Of a stretch of DNA of 64,000 bases, positions 53,826-63,574 are shown one piece after another. The notes below the pieces were generated by a model, which saw nothing but the letters and a program-made list of their open reading frames with translations, was not told where the DNA came from and searched no databases. This DNA is from Synechococcus sp. C9 (GTDB lineage: Bacteria > Cyanobacteriota > Cyanobacteriia > Gloeomargaritales > Gloeomargaritaceae): the NCBI RefSeq assembly GCF_022984075.1, contig NZ_JALAAD010000001.1, positions 2,150,455 through 2,214,454 on the forward strand, given 5' to 3'. Positions within the stretch are counted from its first letter, which is position 1. Each line of letters opens with the position of its first letter. A program made the position numbers and the translations under genes.

Positions 53826-53897
53826 GCCCGTGTAGCTCAGTGGTAGAGCACACCCTTGGTAAGGGTGAGGCCACGAGTTCAATCCTCGTCACGGGCT
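53826..53897 (+). tRNA. tRNA-Thr (anticodon GGT), integration target
   Basis: 72 bases. Acceptor GCCCGTG pairs with CACGGGC; anticodon loop TTGGTAA has GGT (reads ACC, and ACT by wobble); T arm CACGAGTTCAATCCTCGT. The 3' CCA is not encoded. From position 53850 onward its 3' half is part of a 53-base direct repeat whose second copy lies at 63351-63403, so this gene is the attachment site of the inserted element. The tRNA itself is intact. Confidence 0.95.
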
Positions 53898-53902
53898 TAC
53901 CG
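53850..53902. repeat. Attachment site copy at the left end (attL)
   Basis: 53 bases identical to 63351-63403. Begins ACACCCTTGGTAAGGGTGAG inside tRNA-Thr and extends 5 bases beyond its end (TACCG). Confidence 0.95.
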
Positions 53903-54012
53903 ATTACAACCCAGTTTCCCCCGCCATAACCCGCATTCAGCCGTTATCCCGTTAGTACACATAGTTTCAGTTGGTAGCAGTTTAGGTGCAGTTAGGGTAT
54001 GTTGGAAGTGTA

Positions 54013-54034
54013 AAAACTGGATCAAAACTGGATC
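54013..54034. promoter_or_regulatory. Tandem integrase arm-type binding sites, left end
   Basis: AAAACTGGATC occurs twice in direct tandem here, 7 bases before the integrase start codon. The same 11-mer recurs at the right end (63293-63303, with a one-sided partner before it) and variants lie inside the integrase gene at 54247-54257, 54259-54269 and, inverted, 54278-54288. This layout fits arm-type sites of a tyrosine recombinase. Binding is inferred, not shown. Confidence 0.6.
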
Positions 54035-54040
54035 AAAGAA

Positions 54041-55195
54041 ATGGAGCTTATACAGGCGGGCGGTAAGGGCAAGGTAGCGATATACAACCGGGATGGTTTG
54101 TACTGGTTGCGGTGGAGCTACAAAGGCAAGCGGTACAGTCTAGCGGTGGGGCACTCGCAGGTAAAACCCACACGGGCATTGGCGGGACGGATAGAAATGG
54201 ATATGGCGGCGGGGCATTTTGACAGTAGCTTGGAATCCTACCGCCCAAAACAGGATCAAAAAGTGGATCAAACTTCTGATCCAGTTTTGGGAGTGCAGGA
54301 GTTATGGCAGATGTTTATGGATGCCCGTAGGCTTGCCGGTACAAGTGAGTTTTTTATAAACAACAGGTTTAAGAGCCTAGCCCGGAATCTAGCCCGGTGG
54401 GGCAAGGACATTACTTCAGAAGATACCGCCCGTGCGTTTATTGAATATCTGCGTAGCCGTCAGTCCCCCACGACTGCCAACGATAACCTACGGCACCTTA
54501 AATCTTTTGGCAGATGGGCTGTGGAGCAGGGGCACTGGCAAGCTAACCATTTTGAGAGACTGCAACACGCTAAGGTGCAGATTGCCCCGAAGCGTGATAA
54601 CCCGTTTACTGCTGATGAAGTGCGACTATTCCTACAAACCATTAAAACGGACGCTACATATTATAAGTATCACGACTTCTGCTATTGCCTATTCCACCTT
54701 GGTACCCGCCCATCAGAATTGATAGGACTGCGGTGGAGTGCCATAGATTTTACCCGTAGGCTGATTACCATAGCGGAATCCCTTAGCAGGGGTGATGATG
54801 GCAAGAGTGCTGGTTACGCTAGACAACGCAAGAGTACCAAAACCGGCAATGTACGAGTCCTACCCATGACTGAATCAGTTTATAGCCTGTTAACCGGGCG
54901 GTTTCAGGAATCACAACCTAAATCACCTGATGCGTTGGTGTTTACCAGTCCCACCGGGCGGGCGATTGATGATCACAATTTCAGTCAGCGGTGTTGGCGT
55001 AGCATTTGCCAGCGGGCGGGCATACCGTACAGGCCGCCATATATTGCCCGGCACACGGCACTTAGCCATATTGTGGAATCCACCGGCTCTCTAGCGCAGG
55101 CGGCGGCGGTGGCGGGGCATAGCTCCCTACGGATGGTGAGTCAAACCTACGGGCACCTGGTAAGCCGGGTGCAGATGCCCAGTTATGAAGGTTAG
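54041..55195 (+). CDS. int: Tyrosine-type site-specific integrase
   Basis: 384 residues. The N-terminal 50 residues (KVAIYNRDGLYWLRWSYKGKRYSLAVG) look like an arm-DNA-binding domain, followed by a core-binding SAM-like part. The catalytic domain has the first Arg in LGTRPSELIGLRW, then PYIARHTALSHIVE for the H-x-x-R box (here Y-I-A-R), AGHSSLRMVSQ (H/W) and the nucleophile Tyr in TYGHLVSR. The first His of the box is replaced by Tyr, which is known in some family members. It should catalyse integration into and excision from tRNA-Thr. It starts 143 bases after the tRNA. Confidence 0.93.
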   Translation: MELIQAGGKGKVAIYNRDGLYWLRWSYKGKRYSLAVGHSQVKPTRALAGRIEMDMAAGHFDSSLESYRPKQDQKVDQTSDPVLGVQELWQMFMDARRLAGTSEFFINNRFKSLARNLARWGKDITSEDTARAFIEYLRSRQSPTTANDNLRHLKSFGRWAVEQGHWQANHFERLQHAKVQIAPKRDNPFTADEVRLFLQTIKTDATYYKYHDFCYCLFHLGTRPSELIGLRWSAIDFTRRLITIAESLSRGDDGKSAGYARQRKSTKTGNVRVLPMTESVYSLLTGRFQESQPKSPDALVFTSPTGRAIDDHNFSQRCWRSICQRAGIPYRPPYIARHTALSHIVESTGSLAQAAAVAGHSSLRMVSQTYGHLVSRVQMPSYEG

Positions 55196-55200
55196 GGAAA

Positions 55201-56040
55201 ATGAATCAGATAACCGTCATTGGCTCCAACCCTAAATATGTGGACAAGGAAACCTATATTAGGGATGTTAATGTTTTTCTAAGAAACCACCCCTACTACC
55301 GGGCTGTACGGGTTATCAAAAATGAATTTAACCCGGATGAGGAAACAGTAGAGTATCTGTTTTCCTACCTGCTGGTGGACACCTTAAAAAATACTCAATA
55401 CCAGGGGAATTTGAGAGCAGAATTAGCTTACAAGTGCTTTCATCTATTGGTGCTTGAGTCATTGTGGCGGTCACTCATTTACCCTAAATTCAGGTTAGAT
55501 GATCCCGTTTTTAAGCAAAAATTACAACTGAATAAAAAAACTCGCACCATCCTGTCACCCCACGTCAATTTACAAGCTAATGCGTGTTTAAGTATGTGGA
55601 AAATGTTGGAGCGTTTACATTCCTTGGGGCGGGTTGGCTACGCTACAACGACGCTATTTCAACTGCTATGGCATGAGCCATCGGGACTTATGTTTCCCGA
55701 TTGCAATGCTTTTGATAACCTTAGCCATACCACGATCCGCAATTCGCAAAACGAAACCCAAAACTACCTGCGGAATATAGGGGGATTGTCTGTTTATAAG
55801 AAACAACACTGGGAGCAGGGGGAAAGCCTACCGCCGTTAAATCCATTCCAAGACTGGCCTGTATCAAATTTGATTCTAAAACTAGCAAGAAATGAAGCAA
55901 TAAACTCACCAGTGTTTAGAAAGGAATTTTATTGTCCCTTTGTAGATGCCCGCCACAAACTAATCCATTACTTGCAACATACCCAATTGATACTTTTGCA
56001 CCAATCCCCAAAAGGTGTAATGACAAAAGCTACACGCTAA
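55201..56040 (+). CDS. Unknown protein of the integrated element
   Basis: 279 residues, starts 5 bases after the integrase stop, so it is likely cotranscribed. Segments such as DVNVFLRNHPYYRAVRVIKNEFNPDEETVEYLFSYLLVDTL and NLQANACLSMWKMLERLHSLGRVGYATTTLFQLLW are predicted helical; no signal peptide, membrane segment or known motif seen. Its place between integrase and the small HTH gene is where cargo or defence genes are often found in satellite elements, but I have no direct evidence. No family recognised. Confidence 0.62.
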   Translation: MNQITVIGSNPKYVDKETYIRDVNVFLRNHPYYRAVRVIKNEFNPDEETVEYLFSYLLVDTLKNTQYQGNLRAELAYKCFHLLVLESLWRSLIYPKFRLDDPVFKQKLQLNKKTRTILSPHVNLQANACLSMWKMLERLHSLGRVGYATTTLFQLLWHEPSGLMFPDCNAFDNLSHTTIRNSQNETQNYLRNIGGLSVYKKQHWEQGESLPPLNPFQDWPVSNLILKLARNEAINSPVFRKEFYCPFVDARHKLIHYLQHTQLILLHQSPKGVMTKATR

Positions 56041-56130
56041 CTCAAGATCCCCCTAAAAATTTTGGCTTTTTATCGGGGTTTGCCGGATTTTTTTAACAAG
56101 CACAATGCAGGAATAATCTTTTTTAGACTG

Positions 56131-56149
56131 CCAATAGTGATTCTATTGG
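56131..56149. promoter_or_regulatory. Inverted repeat upstream of the small HTH gene
   Basis: CCAATAG then TGATT then CTATTGG: a perfect 7-base inverted repeat with a 5-base centre, 9 bases before the HTH gene ATG. It overlaps the ribosome binding region (TTGGGGG). It is well placed as an operator for autorepression, or as a hairpin that hides the ribosome site. Confidence 0.55.
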
Positions 56150-56158
56150 GGGTTTTGA

Positions 56159-56380
56159 ATGCTGTTGAAAATCGAAGAAGCGGCGGAGCTTTGTCGGGTT
56201 TCCACTTGGTGTTTCAAGCGATGGGTTAGGGAGGGGCGGATACCGGCAACCGCCATCTTCAAACCATCCCGGCGGTGTGTGCGATACAGATCGGAAATCC
56301 TTGATAAATGGATTGCGGGGAAACTGGAATCCCCGGAGCCACGCAGGGTGGGGCGGCCCCGGAGGGAGCGCCATGAGTAA
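56159..56380 (+). CDS. AlpA/excisionase-type helix-turn-helix protein
   Basis: 73 residues. MLLKIEEAAELCRVSTWCFKRWVREGRIPATAIFKPSRRCVRYRSEILDKWI is a MerR-like winged HTH with the AAELCxVSxxxFxRWVREG recognition helix and a wing (SRRCVRYRSEILDKW). Such AlpA-like proteins regulate or assist excision of integrated elements. It stands after the integrase and one unknown, and a palindrome lies just upstream, so autoregulation is likely. The tail is Arg-rich. Confidence 0.82.
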   Translation: MLLKIEEAAELCRVSTWCFKRWVREGRIPATAIFKPSRRCVRYRSEILDKWIAGKLESPEPRRVGRPRRERHE

Positions 56381-56537
56381 CCCAAAAAAACAACCCCCGA
56401 CACCGTTGCCGGGGGGAATGTCAAAAAAACTTTCAATGATAAGGAGAGACTATCATGACAAGCTTAACCCATGCAAACAATGCGGTACACCATTTAGACA
56501 ATCGGCACCGACAAGAGTGGCTACAGTCGGCGGTTAG
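56373..56537 (+). CDS. Doubtful small gene between HTH and primase genes
   Basis: 54 residues beginning MSNPKKQPPTPLPGGMSKKLSMIRRD, with a CKQCGTPF pair of cysteines. It overlaps the HTH gene by 8 bases and the primase gene by 83 bases. A zinc-knuckle-like CxxC may be chance. The overlap with the well-started primase gene makes it uncertain. Confidence 0.25.
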   Translation: MSNPKKQPPTPLPGGMSKKLSMIRRDYHDKLNPCKQCGTPFRQSAPTRVATVGG

Positions 56538-58848
56538 CCCGGATGTAATTGATCTCAATGTTGAAACCCTAAGGGATGCCCAGGCGGTAGCCAAATTACT
56601 AAACCTGCCATTGGATGGGCTTCACGGATGGGGGGCAAAGGATTTAACACCGGGCTGGATAGCTTGGAGTGTCGATCCCCTGACGGGCAAACGGGACGGC
56701 TCATTCATTTACAAGCCCGACAAGGCACCCTTAGCCCTTGATGACGGCAAACCCAAGATTGGCACTGATGGCACTATCAAACGGTGCAAATACATCCAGC
56801 GCAGGGGGGCGGCTACAAAGCCCCTATTTCTACAAGCAGACTGGTTAAATTGGCCTGAGATTTTAGCTGATGAAAGCTACGATTTAGCACTCTGCGAAGG
56901 GGGCAAAAAAGCAGGCTCACTTATCAGTCAGTCTATCGCCGCCATTTCCATTCAGGGGATGTGGAATTCCCAGGTTAATTGGGAATTAAAACCCGAATTA
57001 AGGATATTTTGCCCAGGGCGGAATATCTATCTTTTCCCTGATGCTGATTGGCGGACTAATGCCAATGTCGCTCAGGGGTGGTTACGCACTGGAGCATTGC
57101 TCCAAGATGCGGGGGCAAACATCAAAGTTTGTGTCTGGGATTCAGCACTAGGTAAAGGCGTTGATGATGCCCTAGCTAATGGTGCCATCCTAGAAAAAAT
57201 CATGGGCAAGGCATTGGATTTATCCCAATGGGCAAAGCAGGTTAAAACAATCAAGACTGAAGCCCCAGAAGTTACACCGGAATTGGTGAATCAGGTATTA
57301 GCTGAATCTCAAGCTAGATTTGATGTTTATCAGCTAATTCCCACCGAATTGGCTAATGCAATCACCCGTAAAGCTAAAACCTTTGAATTACCCCCGGAAA
57401 CCCTGCTATCCGTATTTCTAGCGGTTGCCAGTAGCCTAATTCCCCATAAACTATCCTTGGGGGATGATTACACGATACCCGCCATTTTATGGTTAGGTTT
57501 GATGGGGGATAGTGGCACTGGAAAATCACCCGTAATCAACACCTTTACCAAGCCCCTAAGCAAGTTTCAAAGGGAAGCCTATGAGCGTTATGAATCGGCA
57601 ATGGAAGCCTATAGGCAAGCCTTAGGGGACAAGGAAATTGAAAATAAACCCTCCCCCCCTAATCGCAGGTTTTACTACCTTCAAGACTTCACCTGGGAAG
57701 CGATTAGCACAGCCCTAAAAGCCCGTAATCATTGCCTGATTTATTCAGATGAATTAGCAGGCTTTGTGCTAGGGCAAAATCAATATAAACAACGGGGCGG
57801 AAACGATAGGCAAAGATGGTTAACCGCCTATGATGGTGGGGCAATTGACGTTTTAAGGACTACCCGGAATTTGCATATTCCTGATGCAAGTCTCAGTGTT
57901 TTAGGGGGCATACAACCGTCAATACTGCAACAGTTAATAGGTAGGGATGGCTCAACGGTGGATGGATTTTGGGCACGGTTTTTATGGATTGAAATTCCCA
58001 GTCGCAAATTACCTTGTCCTATCGATGCCCCGGTCGTCAATCTGAGTGAGCTACTCGCAGGGGTTTATGAGCGCCTGGATCAACGGGCGGGGGTAAGTAG
58101 CACTTTCAGCCTGTGCCCCAGGGGAAAACGCTTATGGGCGCAATGGTGGGATGAAGTCGAAGCCCTTAAGGATTCAGAAGTAAACCCATTCCTAAAGGCA
58201 ATCTATCCCAAGATGATGGAGCGAGCCGGGCGGGTAGCCCTGGTTGCCCATTGTGTGAATAGTGCATTTAGGAATGATTGCCCAGGCGAAGTCATACCCC
58301 CGGAAACCTTGGAATGGGCAATCGCATTTATTAGGTGGACACTTCAACAATCCAGGCTGGTTTATGCCGATTGTGGACACTGCGAAAGCCCCGAAGCGCA
58401 ACGGATAGCCCGGTTTATCCAAAAATTCCAGGGCAAAACTGTTGACGGTAGGCGGGTGAATGCTTGGTGGACTGGTAATAAAAAACCCCTAGCCAAAGAA
58501 TGCCGCCAATGGCTTGCCGATCTGGTAGCCCTTGGTTATGCCGAAGTCATCTCCGGCACCCCCGATAAACCCGATTTTGCTGTAAGGATTCTAGGTGCAA
58601 AGGTGCATAATCCCCAGAAGTCGCATTATGACGGGGATACAAGCGCACCTACCCCAGGTGCATTTTTAGGTGCAAAGGTGCATTTGCCAAACCCCGATAC
58701 GAAAAATGCACCTAACGCACCTGTAGATGCACCTACCACAGGTGCGCCGGAAACCACGACTGGGAGCCAATTCCAGGGAAATGCACCTAATGCACCTGAT
58801 TTTATAGATTCCAATTCAGAGGGGGATGAGCAATGGGAGGACTTCTAA
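56455..58848 (+). CDS. Replication protein: Toprim-like N-terminus and DUF3987-type helicase
   Basis: 797 residues. The first 270 contain LALCEGGKKAGSLISQSIAAI and FPDADWRTNANVAQGW, similar to DUF3854/Toprim-type primase parts. From about residue 340 is a P-loop ATPase with GLMGDSGTGKSPVINTF (Walker A) and NHCLIYSDELAGFVLGQ (Walker B), then LSVLGGIQPSILQQLIGRDGS. This matches DUF3987, a helicase family of mobile elements and phages. The tail has Ala/Pro/Thr repeats. The ATG at 56455 has AAGGAGAG as ribosome site. The likely role is to start replication of the excised element, perhaps at the repeat array at 60.4-60.7 kb. Confidence 0.84.
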   Translation: MTSLTHANNAVHHLDNRHRQEWLQSAVSPDVIDLNVETLRDAQAVAKLLNLPLDGLHGWGAKDLTPGWIAWSVDPLTGKRDGSFIYKPDKAPLALDDGKPKIGTDGTIKRCKYIQRRGAATKPLFLQADWLNWPEILADESYDLALCEGGKKAGSLISQSIAAISIQGMWNSQVNWELKPELRIFCPGRNIYLFPDADWRTNANVAQGWLRTGALLQDAGANIKVCVWDSALGKGVDDALANGAILEKIMGKALDLSQWAKQVKTIKTEAPEVTPELVNQVLAESQARFDVYQLIPTELANAITRKAKTFELPPETLLSVFLAVASSLIPHKLSLGDDYTIPAILWLGLMGDSGTGKSPVINTFTKPLSKFQREAYERYESAMEAYRQALGDKEIENKPSPPNRRFYYLQDFTWEAISTALKARNHCLIYSDELAGFVLGQNQYKQRGGNDRQRWLTAYDGGAIDVLRTTRNLHIPDASLSVLGGIQPSILQQLIGRDGSTVDGFWARFLWIEIPSRKLPCPIDAPVVNLSELLAGVYERLDQRAGVSSTFSLCPRGKRLWAQWWDEVEALKDSEVNPFLKAIYPKMMERAGRVALVAHCVNSAFRNDCPGEVIPPETLEWAIAFIRWTLQQSRLVYADCGHCESPEAQRIARFIQKFQGKTVDGRRVNAWWTGNKKPLAKECRQWLADLVALGYAEVISGTPDKPDFAVRILGAKVHNPQKSHYDGDTSAPTPGAFLGAKVHLPNPDTKNAPNAPVDAPTTGAPETTTGSQFQGNAPNAPDFIDSNSEGDEQWEDF

Positions 58849-59543
58849 CCGCCCCGAAGGTGGGGGAATGCTATGCCGGGGGGATTGTCACTCGCAGGCA
58901 ACGGACACCCCAGGGGCAAGTACGGCTATTGGTTAATGGGCAATGGATAACCTTTGAGCCATCCCCGCCATTGGATAGATTCAAACCGGGGGACAAAATC
59001 AGATTGATTAACCCCACCTGCTGGGAGTGGCAACGGTGGCCGGGGGGCGTTACTGCCAAGGTTGTGGACGTGTTGGATGGGGGTGCAAGGCTAAGAATAA
59101 GCACCCCCGAAAGTGAGCGGGGCGGGTTTTATTACGGTGTGGACAGTGAAAACTGGGAATTAGTAGAGACACCTGCACCACCACCGGCACCCCCGCCGCC
59201 GCCACCACCGCTGGTAATCTCTGAGCCGGATGCGCCTACTACAGGTACACCGGAAACCCCTGTCCCCCATACTCCGAAACAAATTAATCAGGTGAGTTTG
59301 CAGGTCGGGGACTGGGTGCGATACCGGGGGAGCTATCAATCGTTGCGGGTGCAGTGCGAGCATTCCCGCCGGGACGGTGTGAGGATAACCGCCATTGATG
59401 GGGATATGGCAACCATCAAAGCCAAAAAATGGATTTATGGTTATACGGTGCCGATTGCCGAATTGGTTTTAGAGCGCAGGGGAAACCCACCGGCAAAAAC
59501 TATTAGCGCAGTTGGGGGAAATGATGATGACACCCCGTTTTAG
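58833..59543 (+). CDS. Two-domain protein with Pro linker, unknown
   Basis: 236 residues, overlapping the end of the helicase gene by 16 bases. Residues 8-108 and 152-222 are both rich in beta strands (GECYAGGIVTRRQRTPQGQVRLLVNG, and VGDWVRYRGSYQSLRVQCEHSRRDGVRITAIDG), each like a small SH3/KOW-type barrel. They are joined by a run of Pro and a DAPTTGTPETP segment also found at the end of the helicase (DAPTTGAPET). No enzyme motif. Possibly a DNA- or RNA-binding accessory protein. Confidence 0.68.
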   Translation: MGGLLTAPKVGECYAGGIVTRRQRTPQGQVRLLVNGQWITFEPSPPLDRFKPGDKIRLINPTCWEWQRWPGGVTAKVVDVLDGGARLRISTPESERGGFYYGVDSENWELVETPAPPPAPPPPPPPLVISEPDAPTTGTPETPVPHTPKQINQVSLQVGDWVRYRGSYQSLRVQCEHSRRDGVRITAIDGDMATIKAKKWIYGYTVPIAELVLERRGNPPAKTISAVGGNDDDTPF

Positions 59544-59598
59544 CGCAAACAAGTCTGGCTAACCGCCGGAGTAAACCACACCTCAAGGAGTCATCAAA

Positions 59599-59772
59599 AT
59601 GATCAGCGAAATTATTGGCATTGTCAAACAATTGCCGCCGGGTGCCCAACGGGACGTTTTAGACTTCTGCCAATTTGTGGCACGTCAACACCGGGGCAAA
59701 GTTGAGAAACGGCAACGGGAATGGCAGAAACGTCACACCGATGATCCGCCAATGTACAAGGGCACTCCCTAA
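59599..59772 (+). CDS. Small DUF2281-like protein, orphan antitoxin-like
   Basis: 57 residues: MISEIIGIVKQLPPGAQRDV, then DFCQFVARQHRGKVEKRQREW. The helix pattern resembles the antitoxin at 10169-10396 (VIEQLKVMPQHLQWQVLEFV). The ATG follows AAGGAGTCATCAAA, a good ribosome site, and the coding pattern is clean. No toxin gene is next to it, so either it is an orphan antitoxin or another kind of small regulator. It is the last rightward gene of the left operon. Confidence 0.58.
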   Translation: MISEIIGIVKQLPPGAQRDVLDFCQFVARQHRGKVEKRQREWQKRHTDDPPMYKGTP

Positions 59773-60388
59773 CACCATCTGGGGGCATCATTCCCGGTGC
59801 CCCCTCCCCTGCTGATGAGAATCCACATTCTAAAAAGTGAATCGCAAATTAGGGTGAGCCTAGTCCCCCATCGCCGCCCGGCCACCGCACCCCCAGTAAA
59901 CAAAAATCAGTACCTTGGTGTGTTGCGTACTCACCCACCCGTGTACGCAAAATTTAAGCCAATTTTGTACTAACAGTCCCCGTAAAATCCCCAGCAATGC
60001 CCCCACGAGCAACCGCCCGTATGATTCTATCTGTAGGTGGGGGAAACTCGCTGTAGGGCATTCTAGCGGGCAATCAGATAAAACTAGCCCAAAAACCAAG
60101 GCATACCTTTGGCAATCCGATATATTCAACATTGATATACATAAGTTGTACTAATCAATGGCTGTAACTAACAATGTATTTACTCGCAAGGTTACGTTAT
60201 TACAATGCTTACGCCGGAATAAATCGTTAATGCACCTTCCAAGCGTACTGCAATCGGAGCGGGGAAACTGATTGCCAGTCCAACAGTTTATGACAATCCC
60301 CCGACTATATCAGTTTGATACACCTTTTAGGCACCGGGTGGTGGTGGGGATAGGCGGCAAGTAATGGCGGTTGCGGTTGCACCAAAGG
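59773..60388. other. 616-base stretch without a clear gene; nested inverted repeats
   Basis: Starts the long non-coding zone of the element. TTGCGTAC at 59923-59930 and GTACGCAA at 59943-59950 are perfect inverted 8-mers with a 12-base loop. The second overlaps a further inverted pair, AAAATT and AATTTT (59949-59966) with flanking GTAC. A short reading (59860-60132, minus strand) shows no features of a gene. Upstream of the hairpin array, GGCACC and GGCGGCAA motifs begin near 60330. Confidence 0.5.
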
Positions 60389-60660
60389 CACCACATTACA
60401 CCGTCGTGTAAAATGGTGAAACCCCGTCTGGGAGGGCTTTTCAGGGTTGATCCTGAAAAATCACCACGTTACCCCGTCGGGTAATCTGGTGAAACGCCGT
60501 CTGGGAGGGGGATAGGCGGCAATCCATCCCCCCAGTGAATGCACCATTTTATCTCTAGAGTCAAGGTGGTGAAACGCCGTCAGGGTGGGGGTTAGCGGCA
60601 ATCAATATGCCACCATCTTATCCGTAGAGATAATGTGGCGAAAACGCATCAGGGCGGGTA
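60389..60660. repeat. Four-unit hairpin-repeat array, candidate replication origin or regulatory region
   Basis: Four imperfect units begin at 60389, 60462, 60542 and 60611, 69-80 bases apart. Each has CACCA, then a short inner stem (TTACAC CGTC GTGTAA in unit 1, TTACCC CGTC GGGTAA in unit 2, weaker in 3, TTATC/GATAA in 4), then TGGTGAAAC(C/G)CCGTC(T/A)GGG and, in three units, a trailing TA(G)GCGGCAATC. CACCA and TGGTG flank the stem as outer inverted arms. Stem bases change on both sides in step. A separate perfect stem TTTTCAGG/CCTGAAAA (60438-60459) lies between units 1 and 2. GGCACCA repeats follow at 60687-60740. Confidence 0.78.
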
Positions 60661-60757
60661 TTAGCGGCAATCGATCCACCTTAGCTGGCACCAGGCACCA
60701 AAGGCACCAAGGGGAATTCCCACCTGGCAGGGGCACCAGGCGGGGGATATAGGCGGG

Positions 60758-60958
60758 TTACAGTTTGCTGGCAAGCTCAGTCAATTCAGCCAGCCGCAAC
60801 AGCATAGATTCCCACTCCCGAAGTTGTGTTTCCCCGGGATAGGTTTCTTCTTTAAAACACAAGGAGACTTGCGCCGAAAGTGCCTTCAAGGAATTCGCAA
60901 CAAACTCCAGCAATTCCGGTTGGTTGGTGAGCAGAGTGGGCAAGTTGTCATTAGTCAT
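60758..60958 (-). CDS. Small unknown protein of the leftward operon
   Basis: 66 residues, MTNDNLPTLLTNQPELLEFVANSLKALSAQVSLCF, helical, no motif. The ATG at 60958 has AGGAG 8 bases before it. It is the last gene in a leftward series of small genes that starts at 62632. No family recognised. Confidence 0.55.
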   Translation of the reverse strand: MTNDNLPTLLTNQPELLEFVANSLKALSAQVSLCFKEETYPGETQLREWESMLLRLAELTELASKL

Positions 60959-61024
60959 GGCTAAAACTCCTAAATCAAGGTACAAGGGACGGGGCAGTTT
61001 AACGCCATGCCCCAGGGCGGCAAG

Positions 61025-61435
61025 CTAGATTTTGCGGGTGAGAGCGATAAACACCGTAATCGCCATATCCTTGATCAGCTCAGGCGGCAATCCTTCCATT
61101 TGCCCCGCCATTTCCTGATAGCAGGTTGTCAGCAGGTGGCAGTAATGGCTAACCGTATCAGGGGACGGCATGGTGTTGGCGGGCGTAGTCTTTGGCGGCG
61201 GGGGGACAGTCTCACCTTCTGGGGGGACTTCTAGCGGCTTATACTTTCCGCCGTTTGCCATTAAGACAATTTCTTCACCCCTAGAATAAGTGCCAATAAT
61301 ATCGCCCGGTTTCCCCCACAATTTAATCTCTTGTTTGTCGGGCAACTCCACCACGATATTGATCCTCTCGCCGTACTGGGTGTTAAAAACCCGCCCAGCA
61401 GGAAATTTCACCTTCCCTTTTACCAACGTGGCCAT
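61025..61435 (-). CDS. Small protein with possible OB-like fold
   Basis: 136 residues. The first 70 (MATLVKGKVKFPAGRVFNTQYGERINIVVELPDKQEIKLWGKPG) alternate beta strands in an order that could form an OB fold, i.e. a single-strand DNA-binding type domain; a Pro-rich linker and a helical tail follow. This is inference from the pattern, with no conserved motif. It lies in the leftward operon. A longer reading to 61498 adds poor N-terminal sequence; ATG 61435 is preferred. Confidence 0.52.
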   Translation of the reverse strand: MATLVKGKVKFPAGRVFNTQYGERINIVVELPDKQEIKLWGKPGDIIGTYSRGEEIVLMANGGKYKPLEVPPEGETVPPPPKTTPANTMPSPDTVSHYCHLLTTCYQEMAGQMEGLPPELIKDMAITVFIALTRKI

Positions 61436-61523
61436 AATTTTCACACTCCAATTTGCAGGGTTTAACGTTGTCAGTACAATGCAGACAATCCCCGCCAATC
61501 AAGGGACGGGCGGGGAATTGTAC

Positions 61524-61709
61524 TTACCAATCGTGTCCTAGTGCTTCCAACTCTTCCCAGGTTTCAACACCCCAGGCGGACAGCATTTCCTCACGGCGCA
61601 TATCCTCTTGGGCGCATTGCAAGTCGTACTCCTGATCCGGGGTTAATATGGCTTCGCCACGCAAGCTATCGGTAGTGCCGTCAACAATCAAATCAGATTC
61701 AAATTCCAT
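61524..61709 (-). CDS. Small acidic unknown protein containing a dispersed-repeat segment
   Basis: 61 residues, MEFESDLIVDGTTDSLRGEAIL...QEDMRREEMLSAWGVETWEELEALGHDW, acidic. The ATG at 61709 has GGAGG six bases before. The DNA at 61650-61675 (TGGCTTCGCCACGCAAGCTA) resembles a segment common in the dispersed repeats (for example TGCCTACGGCACGCAAGCTA at 22151), so repeat sequence seems built into the coding region without breaking it. Function unknown. Confidence 0.55.
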   Translation of the reverse strand: MEFESDLIVDGTTDSLRGEAILTPDQEYDLQCAQEDMRREEMLSAWGVETWEELEALGHDW

Positions 61710-61722
61710 TGCAATCCTCCTA

Positions 61723-61845
61723 TTACCATTCAAAACGTTGGATAATTTGCCGCCAATCAGTAGCGGGTTGTTGTTGTGGCTTAGGCATGGGGGTTTTGGA
61801 TTCCTGTGCCGGTTGCGTTTTCTTAGTCCGTTTTGTGGTTGCCAT
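61723..61845 (-). CDS. Very small basic protein of the leftward operon
   Basis: 40 residues, MATTKRTKKTQPAQESKTPM, then KPQQQPATDWRQII and QRFEW. The ATG at 61845 follows AGGAGATTCACC. Its stop lies 13 bases before the ATG of the next gene, with that gene's ribosome site in between. Lysine-rich start, no known family. Accepted because spacing and ribosome site fit the operon. Confidence 0.5.
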   Translation of the reverse strand: MATTKRTKKTQPAQESKTPMPKPQQQPATDWRQIIQRFEW

Positions 61846-61901
61846 TGGTGAATCTCCTATTAGGTGAATGCCCCCAGCGGGATTGCCGGGGGCGGTGAAT
61901 T

Positions 61902-62384
61902 TTAGGCGTAGTAGGCGTGGTCTTGCGGGTATTCTTTGACGCCGAATTGCTCAGGCTGACGGCGTTTCCGGGGTTTGGGAGCAGGGGAAACCGGGGTGGG
62001 GTTATTAACGGTTTCTTTTTGCCGTTTCTTGTCAAGCCGGATAAACAAATCCACCAAGTCGGCGGTGGGGCGGTGGATTTTGATTTCCCACTTGTAAATA
62101 TCGGAAGGGAAATACTCGCTAGGGCGGGGCAAATTGATACCGCTATCCGACTGGTGGCGGTAGCGGGTGACTTTGCCCTTTTCTAGCAGGTAATTAAAGG
62201 TTTCCATTGCCGCTTCCACTGTCTCAAATGCGAGATACAGGAAAAACTTGGAAGCCGGGGGATAAAACCCTAACCGCACACGGGGGGCACCCACCGGGGC
62301 ACTGATAACCAAACCGCCCTTATCATGAAGCACCTTCTCAATCTTGGAGCGGTGCCCTTGGGGTTGTGTCGCAGTTGTAGTCAT
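61902..62384 (-). CDS. Unknown protein of the leftward operon
   Basis: 160 residues, MTTTATQPQGHRSKIEKVLHDKGGLVISAPV...VRLGFYPPASKFFLYLAFETVEAAMETFNYLLEKGKVTRYRHQ..., with a basic Pro-rich end (APKPRKRRQPEQFGVKE). GGAGG lies before the ATG at 62384. Alternating strands and helices suggest a compact alpha/beta domain. No family recognised. Confidence 0.6.
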   Translation of the reverse strand: MTTTATQPQGHRSKIEKVLHDKGGLVISAPVGAPRVRLGFYPPASKFFLYLAFETVEAAMETFNYLLEKGKVTRYRHQSDSGINLPRPSEYFPSDIYKWEIKIHRPTADLVDLFIRLDKKRQKETVNNPTPVSPAPKPRKRRQPEQFGVKEYPQDHAYYA

Positions 62385-62446
62385 GGGAAAATACCTCCAA
62401 AGAAATGTTTGTGAATTGCCCCGGAATTTCACCGGGGCTGTTTTGT

Positions 62447-62632
62447 TTAACGGCGGAGCGCTTGCCGGTATACGCTCCCGGCAAGCTCACTGATCAGTCC
62501 GAGTTGCTTCACCGGCTCCAGCGTGGCAAACAGCCGCCGAATTTCCGCCAGCGTTGCAGACTCCTCGTCCGTGAAATCCAAACTGCGAGGTGTCAAGTAG
62601 TCGATCACCTTCGAGCGAGTTTTGTCGTCCAT
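62447..62632 (-). CDS. Small protein at the head of the leftward operon
   Basis: 61 residues, MDDKTRSKVIDYLTPRSLDFTDEESATLAEIRRLF, helical and charged. The ATG at 62632 has GGAG just upstream (TTTGGAGATAGC). It is first behind a strong consensus promoter (TTGACA, 18 bases, TATATT at 62754-62783, minus strand) that contains an operator copy. No family recognised. Confidence 0.6.
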   Translation of the reverse strand: MDDKTRSKVIDYLTPRSLDFTDEESATLAEIRRLFATLEPVKQLGLISELAGSVYRQALRR

Positions 62633-62753
62633 TGCTATCTCCAAAAAAAACTACAGATTGGAAGGCTTCAAACTTGGTTGACACCTATGTTGCGCTCAGG
62701 GGCGGTTGTTGCCGGGCGTCCGCCTGCCCTATTTGATTGCCTTCCATATCTTT

Positions 62754-62783
62754 AATATAACCCGGTATACAGCGTTATGTCAA
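62754..62783 (-). promoter_or_regulatory. Leftward promoter of the small-gene operon
   Basis: On the minus strand TTGACA (62783-62778) and TATATT (62759-62754) are separated by 18 bases, matching the sigma-70 consensus closely. Operator copy 1 (CGGTATACAGCGTTATGT, 62763-62780) lies within the spacer and overlaps the -35. Repressor binding there would block transcription. Confidence 0.75.
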
Positions 62784-62861
62784 TCATTTTAGCAATGATA
62801 ATTGATAACACTTTTTGCGGTATACAGCGTTATGTGATAAGATAGGCTTATCGCTGTATAC
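62763..62861. promoter_or_regulatory. Repeated operators between divergent operons
   Basis: CGGTATACAGCGTTATGT occurs perfectly at 62763-62780 and 62818-62835, 55 bases apart. CGCTGTATAC, its inverted core, lies at 62852-62861. The gene right next to it encodes a ribbon-helix-helix protein, which is the natural candidate to bind. TTGCGG (62815-62820), 17 bases, TAAGAT (62838-62843) could be the rightward promoter, with copy 2 in its spacer. Confidence 0.75.
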
Positions 62862-62870
62862 AGGATGAGT

Positions 62871-63278
62871 ATGCCTAACCCGTCACCCCGTCAAACTGAA
62901 GAATTTAAGAAACACTGCTACCAGCCCAAAGGTGCTGTATACAGTGATTATCCTTTAGCAGATAAGCCTACGCAGGTGCGGTTAGCAGAGGATATTACGG
63001 CGGCGGTGGATGCGCTGGGCAACGACAAGACACCTTGGCTACGGCGGGTGATCACTGAAGCAGTCCGTAAGGAATTACTAAGCCAAGCACAGGGGACTGT
63101 ATCAGCAAACGAAGTGCCATCCCCACCACCGGCTAGTCCCCCCTTGGATGCAGATACCTTGGTGAAGGTGTTGAATGAAGTCTTAGCGGTACCACGACTG
63201 CCAGCGGCGGCTAAGAAAAAACTGGAAACCCTGCTAGAAACATTGAGCCAATCCCAGGGGCATTTACCGCTAGGCTAA
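62871..63278 (+). CDS. Ribbon-helix-helix type regulator at the right end of the element
   Basis: 135 residues. YSDYPLADKPTQVRLAEDITAAVDALGNDKTPWLRRVITEAVRKELL is a strand-helix-helix pattern of RHH DNA-binding proteins, with a TQVRLAEDI strand. The C-terminal part is a Pro-rich linker and a helix (LDADTLVKVLNEVLAVPRLPAAAKKKLETLLETL). The ATG at 62871 follows AGGATGAG; an ATG at 62865 is a possible start with a worse ribosome site. The upstream GTATACAGCG operators, also seen once inside this gene (62937), suggest autoregulation and control of the divergent operon. Confidence 0.7.
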   Translation: MPNPSPRQTEEFKKHCYQPKGAVYSDYPLADKPTQVRLAEDITAAVDALGNDKTPWLRRVITEAVRKELLSQAQGTVSANEVPSPPPASPPLDADTLVKVLNEVLAVPRLPAAAKKKLETLLETLSQSQGHLPLG

Positions 63279-63292
63279 TTGAGAATTGGATC

Positions 63293-63303
63293 AAAACTGG
63301 ATC
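63293..63303. promoter_or_regulatory. Integrase arm-type site at the right end
   Basis: AAAACTGGATC, identical to the tandem sites at 54013-54034. A variant AGAATTGGATC (63282-63292) precedes it in direct tandem. It lies 47 bases inside the right att copy, mirroring the left end. Confidence 0.58.
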
Positions 63304-63350
63304 ATAAATTCCGGCTAATTCCTGTAAATCCCTGCTGGAGCCAACAGATA

Positions 63351-63403
63351 ACACCCTTGGTAAGGGTGAGGCCACGAGTTCAATCCTCGTCACGGGCTTA
63401 CCG
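63351..63403. repeat. Attachment site copy at the right end (attR)
   Basis: 53 bases identical to 53850-53902. It is the 3' half of tRNA-Thr without the 5' half, so it is not a functional tRNA gene. The following 80 bases resemble the sequence after attL. Confidence 0.95.
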
Positions 63404-63574
63404 GTTTACACGCTATAAACCCCGCCATAACCCGCATTCCACCGTTAGCACGTTAGTACAGATAGGGTTTAGATTGGGTACATTCGTGTTGATCTTTTAT
63501 TTAAGCCAGAAGAGGGCACAGACAAAGTAGAGAAAGCTCAGGAAGTTCCTTGCCAATTTATCACAACGAGAAAA

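Follow-up and report, generated by a model that had tools for sequence, protein, structure and literature searches.

Lambda O is an instance of an origin of replication lying inside a replication gene. Origins inside rep genes are also found in the staphylococcal plasmids pSK41 and pT181 (PMC5703833). In the archaeal Sulfolobus plasmid pRN1, a stem-loop of 100 nt located 3' of the primase-helicase gene is required, and it is conserved in sequence in its flanks and only in shape in its stem (PMC4234260). Plasmid RSF1010, as described in the same article, has iterons that are separate from its ssi hairpins (ssiA/ssiB), the latter being read by a primase (PMC4234260). CyRepA are cyanobacterial plasmid replication proteins with a DUF3854 domain (PMC9978351, PMC10079941).

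The locus described here, which is located in an integrated element of a 2.96-Mb genome (G000) from the Gloeomargaritales, shares some features with these systems. As in pRN1, stem-loops are found downstream of a primase-helicase gene, and in the comparison with one sister element (L146) the flanks are kept in sequence and the hairpins seem to be kept only in shape; however, pRN1 lacks iterons and has a single stem-loop of ~100 nt immediately behind the gene, whereas here four small hairpins are located 1.5 kb away, separate iterons are present within the gene, and any origin activity of the array is putative. As in RSF1010, an iteron array is combined with separate small hairpins, and a primase is part of the replication system, but RSF1010 has two ssi sites against four hairpins in the same orientation here, the protein families differ, and priming is putative in the present case. 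The likeness to pSK41, pT181 and lambda O concerns the repeats at 58593-58797 and not the hairpin array: origin repeats, candidate ones in our case, are located in coding sequence and translated as a linker, the difference being that the gene is here a DUF3854-DUF3987 or a Prim-Pol gene and that the iteron blocks are mirror-symmetric. The replication protein resembles CyRepA in its N-terminal DUF3854, its helicase domain and its occurrence in cyanobacterial replicons, but it contains DUF3987 and matches none of the NCBIfam models. Finally, the element resembles PICI-type phage-satellite-like islands in being integrated at a tRNA gene, in encoding an integrase, an AlpA-like protein and a primase-helicase, and in having relatives with RusA- and TerS-like genes; it differs from them in that it has no recognisable packaging genes, and its mobilisation by a helper is putative.

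Gene content of the integrated element

The window, i.e. the whole stretch of 64,000 nucleotides that was analysed, contains the element and the following features on either side of the hairpin array:

53826-53897: tRNA-Thr, integration site of the element
53850-63465, no strand: integrated element of about 9.6 kb, at the tRNA-Thr gene (self-BLAST)
53850-53964 and 63351-63465, no strand: 115-bp direct repeats bounding the element, 87% identical (self-BLAST)
54041-55195, plus strand: tyrosine integrase (Pfam PF00589, E 9e-21; PHROG integrase)
56159-56380, plus strand: AlpA/excisionase-like HTH protein (Pfam HTH_17, 7e-10; phrog_66 excisionase)
56455-58848, plus strand: replication protein (Rep) with DUF3854 (Toprim-like primase) and a DUF3987 helicase domain (Pfam E 6e-20 and 6e-49; phrog_2373 DNA helicase)
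58593-58797, no strand: candidate primary origin with 12 iterons (six AGGTGC, six GCACCT) within the DUF3987 gene, at the 3' end of its coding sequence
59599-59772, plus strand: gene for a DUF2281-like protein of 57 aa, bordering the gap on its left (sub-threshold Pfam match to DUF2281, E 0.002; not in the list of open reading frames)
59781-59804, plus strand: GGGGGCA...TGCCCCC hairpin after the plus-strand operon, probably terminator-like (sequence; present in L146 too)
59944-60335, no strand: conserved non-coding core, common to L146 (78%) and L145 (69%)
60758-60985, minus strand: 75-aa gene, last of the convergent minus-strand block (open reading frame; a related 74-aa one at the same place in L146)

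The remaining genes of the element are small and have no assigned function (Pfam/PHROG annotation), and PADLOC gave no match to defence genes within the element. The longest non-coding gap of the element extends from 59773 to 60757, between a rightward and a leftward, i.e. convergent, gene block. A preliminary description of this DNA had called it the only long non-coding gap; it is indeed the longest, but it begins after the unlisted 57-aa gene. The array lies downstream of the replication gene as described, at a distance of 1.54 kb from the stop codon of Rep. On the other side of the gap, a 157-aa protein (61025-61498) is distantly related to proteins encoded on plasmids of Acaryochloris and Synechococcus. 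A GGGGC-GTTTNACGTCATGCCCC motif is found repeatedly ahead of minus-strand genes, in the window (60990-61030) and in related elements (L145:8337; L146:10310; L139:6030), and might be a regulatory hairpin common to them.

Among the relatives, RusA- and TerS-like genes are encoded in L139 (6993-7833) and L145 (6251-7226), suggesting a family of phage satellites in the Gloeomargaritales. Genes coding for an HK97-type capsid and a prohead protease are also found on contig G007:C56 (L030:1953-3948). This contig probably continues the tRNA-Thr DUF3987 element of contig G007:C192 across an inferred junction, which would make it a small capsid-bearing element.

The four-unit array and its pairing

The four units begin at 60389, 60462, 60542 and 60611, with start-to-start distances of 73, 80 and 69 bases, in agreement with the spacing of 69-80 bases reported at the outset. 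The array and its surroundings comprise the following features:

60328-60365, plus strand: degenerate 'unit 0' (CACC..GGTGGGGATAGGCGGCAA), a weak model match (E 0.047) recognised mainly by its position
60379-60393, plus strand: GCACCAAAGGCACCA, left copy of a 15-bp direct repeat bracketing the array (sequence)
60389-60435, plus strand: unit 1, hairpin at 60389-60418 and tail (alignment, folding)
60438-60459, plus strand: extra perfect 8-bp hairpin TTTTCAGG/CCTGAAAA, which replaces the GGCGGCAATC tail of unit 1 (sequence, fold)
60462-60526, plus strand: unit 2, hairpin at 60462-60491 and tail (alignment, folding)
60542-60606, plus strand: unit 3, outer stem intact, inner stem broken (alignment, folding)
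60611-60675, plus strand: unit 4, hairpin at 60611-60640 and tail (alignment, folding)
60695-60709, plus strand: GCACCAAAGGCACCA, right copy of the direct repeat (one copy only in L146)

The relatedness of the units is far beyond chance, as the array region matches itself with E=3.6e-19. Whole units are 56-75% identical to each other, and the identity amounts to 95% in the outer arms, 50% in the inner stem and loop and 73% in the 3' tail. A covariance model built from the four units scores each of them at 68-87 bits, which is circular as detection and shows a clean four-copy array. The outer CACCA/TGGTG arms, previously attributed to all units, are exact in units 1-3, but unit 4 has CACCA/TGGCG. 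Likewise, the blocks said to be conserved after the hairpins are present in part: an exact TGGTGAAACGCCGTC is confined to units 2 and 3, and the second block reads GGCGGCAATC exactly only in unit 2 and AGCGGCAATC in units 3 and 4, unit 1 being devoid of it. Small hairpins with a conserved sequence 3' of them, as in ssi-type sites, are found (73% in the tail vs 50% in the inner stem), the hairpin of unit 3 being weak. A second hairpin (GCCGTC/GGCGGC), considered as a part of every unit, was rejected as it fails in units 1 and 4; integron attC sites and CRISPR were dropped on sequence grounds, owing to the lack of core sites and of short identical repeats, respectively.

The preliminary description also held that the two sides of the inner stems change together, so that the folded shape rather than the exact sequence is kept. 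The inner stems are fully paired in units 1, 2 and 4 (5 bp in unit 4), but unit 3 (TTATCT/AGTCAA), which had been omitted from the list of stems, has two mismatches and as DNA folds no better than shuffles (z -0.44). Three pairs are changed on both sides, a number matched by 31 of 500 shuffles in which the 3' letters were dealt at random. In a substitution simulation the units were made to drift from unit 2 at the observed distances, in the variable columns only, under the assumptions of a star-like tree and of an ancestor with all pairs intact; as many inner-stem pairs were reached in 0.3% of the runs (P=0.003). With these array statistics and with the paired differences of L146 (see below), hairpin shape seems to be kept at the locus while the sequence turns over; covariation in the array itself is modest and the evidence for a constraint on its shape is moderate, unit 3 being a poor hairpin. 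The wobble-type changes are split evenly by strand (four G-T vs four A-C) and give RNA no advantage over DNA. Both arms of a quasi-palindrome can also be altered together, in the absence of selection, through template-switch repair.

The array has been seen in one genome only. No fifth copy was found in the whole genome, nor any further copy of the kind expected in numbers from an interspersed repeat (REP/MITE type). An array-wide BLAST against 386 cyanobacterial genomes, phages and plasmids returned only scraps of 18-31 bases; the 15-mer TGGTGAAACGCCGTC had 22 single matches in IMG/VR, none of them with an array, and a longer pattern gave 0. With Rfam 15 at gathering score, only tRNAs were detected in the window, and the gap contained nothing credible at E up to 5. 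The covariance-model matches across the 386 genomes were weak and single (21-28 bits) and were taken as chance, since their numbers are not far from expectation over 386 genomes (rough E-values); those that were inspected were mostly coding, e.g. antirepressor-like genes encoding VKRxQGGGS in L081, L082 and L084. The array is missing from the L024, L025, L145, L146 and G007 elements, and its absence from elements of similar kind is what the preliminary description had named as refuting its interpretation.

The non-coding core and the iterons of the replication gene

Sister elements were reached through relatives of the integrase, and the core was found in two genomes, i.e. in the window and in two elements of the Gloeomargaritales strain VI4D9 (G005). 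The first of these, L146, located at a tRNA-Gly gene, matches the window at 59944-60274 (78%) and at 60694-60761 (86%). Between these matching flanks it has just 129 bp and no array, and this slot is occupied by two tandem 32-bp palindromic repeats, AAAACTGTTTGGTCGACCAAACACTTTAGGGG and AAAACTGTTCGGTCGACCGAACACTTTAGGGG, whose only two differences are mutually paired (T-A to C-G). In the second VI4D9 element, L145, the core is present at 69% and there are no hairpins; a stem-loop kept in shape and not in sequence at a fixed place is a feature of the window and of L146, not of L145. From these alignments, the region 59944-60760 is interpreted as a putative conserved cis-acting non-coding cassette. 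Stubs similar to unit 0 occur at the same place in L146 (E 0.41) and L145 (E 0.74), these being weak scores supported mainly by position. As a tail-motif stub follows the core in all three elements, a stub of this kind may have been the starting point of the array. No consistent codon-phase bias was detected that would make the core a protein gene.

The replication genes of the elements with the cassette code for a DUF3987 protein in the window, a Prim-Pol protein and an AAA helicase in L146, and a weak DnaD-like match in L145. Hairpins are present in the two elements that have their own primase (window, L146) and absent from L145, in which no primase was found; with n=3, an association of hairpins with an element-borne primase is suggestive only.

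The 12 iterons near the 3' end of the DUF3987 coding sequence mirror each other in position and orientation about 58693 within one base (mirror sums 117384-117386), and their number exceeds a synonymous-codon null, being reached in 0 of 100 permutations. GCACCT, in either orientation, occurs 12 times in the gene tail and once in the gap, where 0.89 is expected. When 20 plasmid loci, almost all of them cyanobacterial DUF3987 ones, and the window were scanned for repeats, most rep genes proved to have a strong cluster at the 3' end of their coding sequence. Of 23 primase-helicase genes, 18, each with its own iteron, go beyond the synonymous-codon null (≤2/100 permutations reach the observed value), and opposed iteron blocks are present in the 3' coding region of the rep genes of L024, L025, L098, L099, L101-L103, L105, L106, L108, L109, L111, L112 and L146. 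Iterons in this opposed-block style include AGGTACATC/GATGTACCT in L025, AAAGTAGAC/GTCTACTTT in L102 and TGTCGGCGA/GCCGACA in L106 and L109, and the Prim-Pol rep gene of L146, which is not homologous to DUF3987, contains ten ATGGTGAA. One of three non-cyanobacterial DUF3987 genes has in-gene repeats. Three of ten control genes from the same plasmids also reach ≤2/100 and a fourth comes close, the excess being smaller in most of the controls, or absent; the statistic therefore lacks specificity when taken by itself, and the case is made better by the opposed, mirrored layout. In pOSC7112.05 (L098:7383-7645), four CTGTGCCA-type repeats are located directly downstream of the DUF3987 gene, besides the in-gene repeats. 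No literature linking DUF3987 to iterons was found. Since the iterons are in the gene, the gap is not enriched in them and the cassette accompanies unrelated rep genes, the primary origin is probably located in the gene, with 58593-58797 as the candidate.

Possible roles of the hairpins

The explanation to which we give the highest probability, albeit only about 0.36, is that the array consists of lineage-specific imperfect DNA palindromes serving as an auxiliary cis-acting signal, perhaps for priming or as second-strand sites, the primary origin being in the gene. The element would be a tRNA-integrated, satellite-like element of Gloeomargarita with the array in a cassette between convergent gene blocks. 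Rep would bind and open the DNA at the mirror-symmetric array of 12 iterons, and the hairpins of the gap would be auxiliary DNA structures, most plausibly serving as priming or second-strand sites on the single strands that are exposed when the element replicates. Each hairpin and its conserved 3' tail could be read as the RSF1010 ssi sites are, shape and tail being kept while the stem sequence drifts. Protein binding, origin activity and the priming role are predicted ones. The inner stems, which are the most diverged part (50%) yet paired beyond simulated drift, and the retention of the cassette while the rep gene is swapped are in favour of this explanation, as are the paired differences of the L146 repeats, the in-gene iterons, the occurrence of hairpins in the two elements with a primase (n=3) and the even split of wobble changes, which suits DNA as well as RNA; the small number of covarying pairs, the poor hairpin of unit 3, the core without hairpins in L145, the occurrence in one genome and the possibility of template-switch repair are against it.

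The palindromes could also be devoid of a dedicated function, having arisen by tandem duplication in a free spacer with template-switch correction, and perhaps helping transcripts to end. This is a serious, if minority, candidate, consistent with the absence of the array from all relatives, the single copy of the bracketing 15-bp repeat in L146, the site between convergent blocks and the extra tail-motif stubs nearby. However, the units (56-75%) are at least as diverged as the flanks between elements (78%), with three of the four inner stems and all outer arms kept; closer to the stop codons, each of the two operons seems to be provided with GC-rich hairpins of its own, and the adjoining core is strongly conserved. 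A structured non-coding RNA, the main functional rival and also a suggestion of the preliminary description, has nearly the same minority probability. In that case the gap would be transcribed and the hairpins would be repeated RNA motifs, e.g. decoys or regulators. None of 100 shuffles folds as well as the RNA of 60380-60690 (z -4.16), the L146 gap also does well against shuffles (z -3.83), and a promoter-like TTTACT-16-TACAAT is present upstream (60179-60206, plus strand). Promoter-like matches are nevertheless near shuffle expectation, G-U changes are not in excess over A-C and no strand is favoured, Rfam gave no match, and RNAalifold found no covariation support in the core on either strand.

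That the array is itself the origin recognised by the helicase of the element, as initially proposed, now appears improbable. The similarity to pRN1, with its required 100-nt stem-loop, shape-only conservation and conserved flanks (PMC4234260), and a stretch of 34% GC adjoining the array speak for it, but the cassette is common to elements with three unrelated replication proteins, and the putative Rep-specific iterons are in the gene, which offers the better candidate, and not enriched in the gap. Moreover, the closest DUF3987 relatives (54-61% protein identity), L024, which has a phage-like context, and L025, have in-gene iterons and no array, and hairpins show no clear general excess downstream of DUF3987 genes (0.76 per kb vs 0.65 upstream). 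Still less probable is another kind of DNA site, i.e. a packaging (pac/cos) or transfer site read by a protein of a helper or of the element. The RusA- and TerS-like genes of L139 and L145, the L145 core beginning right after the TerS-like gene, and the capsid and protease genes of the two-contig G007 element would fit such a site, whereas no TerS is recognisable in the window element or in L146, both of which possess the core, and the core has no match in phage or IMG/VR collections.

A broader interpretation is that the cassette is a Rep-independent, exchangeable hairpin module of cyanobacterial satellite-like elements, used together with in-gene mirror-symmetric origins. It would be composed of the conserved 0.4-kb core followed by a slot in which hairpins are replaced in sequence and kept in shape, and, as structured DNA or RNA acting in cis, would represent a new class. 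This is unlikely, both as to the module and as to the new class.

Should the origin be formed by the in-gene iterons, the cyanobacterial DUF3987 plasmids and islands, a large uncharacterised group, would have a predicted origin ready for cloning, and minimal vectors would become possible. If the hairpins are priming or second-strand sites, the primase fused to the DUF3987 helicase would be tied to a defined substrate. If neither is true, the locus would be a clean case in which selection on shape can be set against template-switch correction of palindromes.
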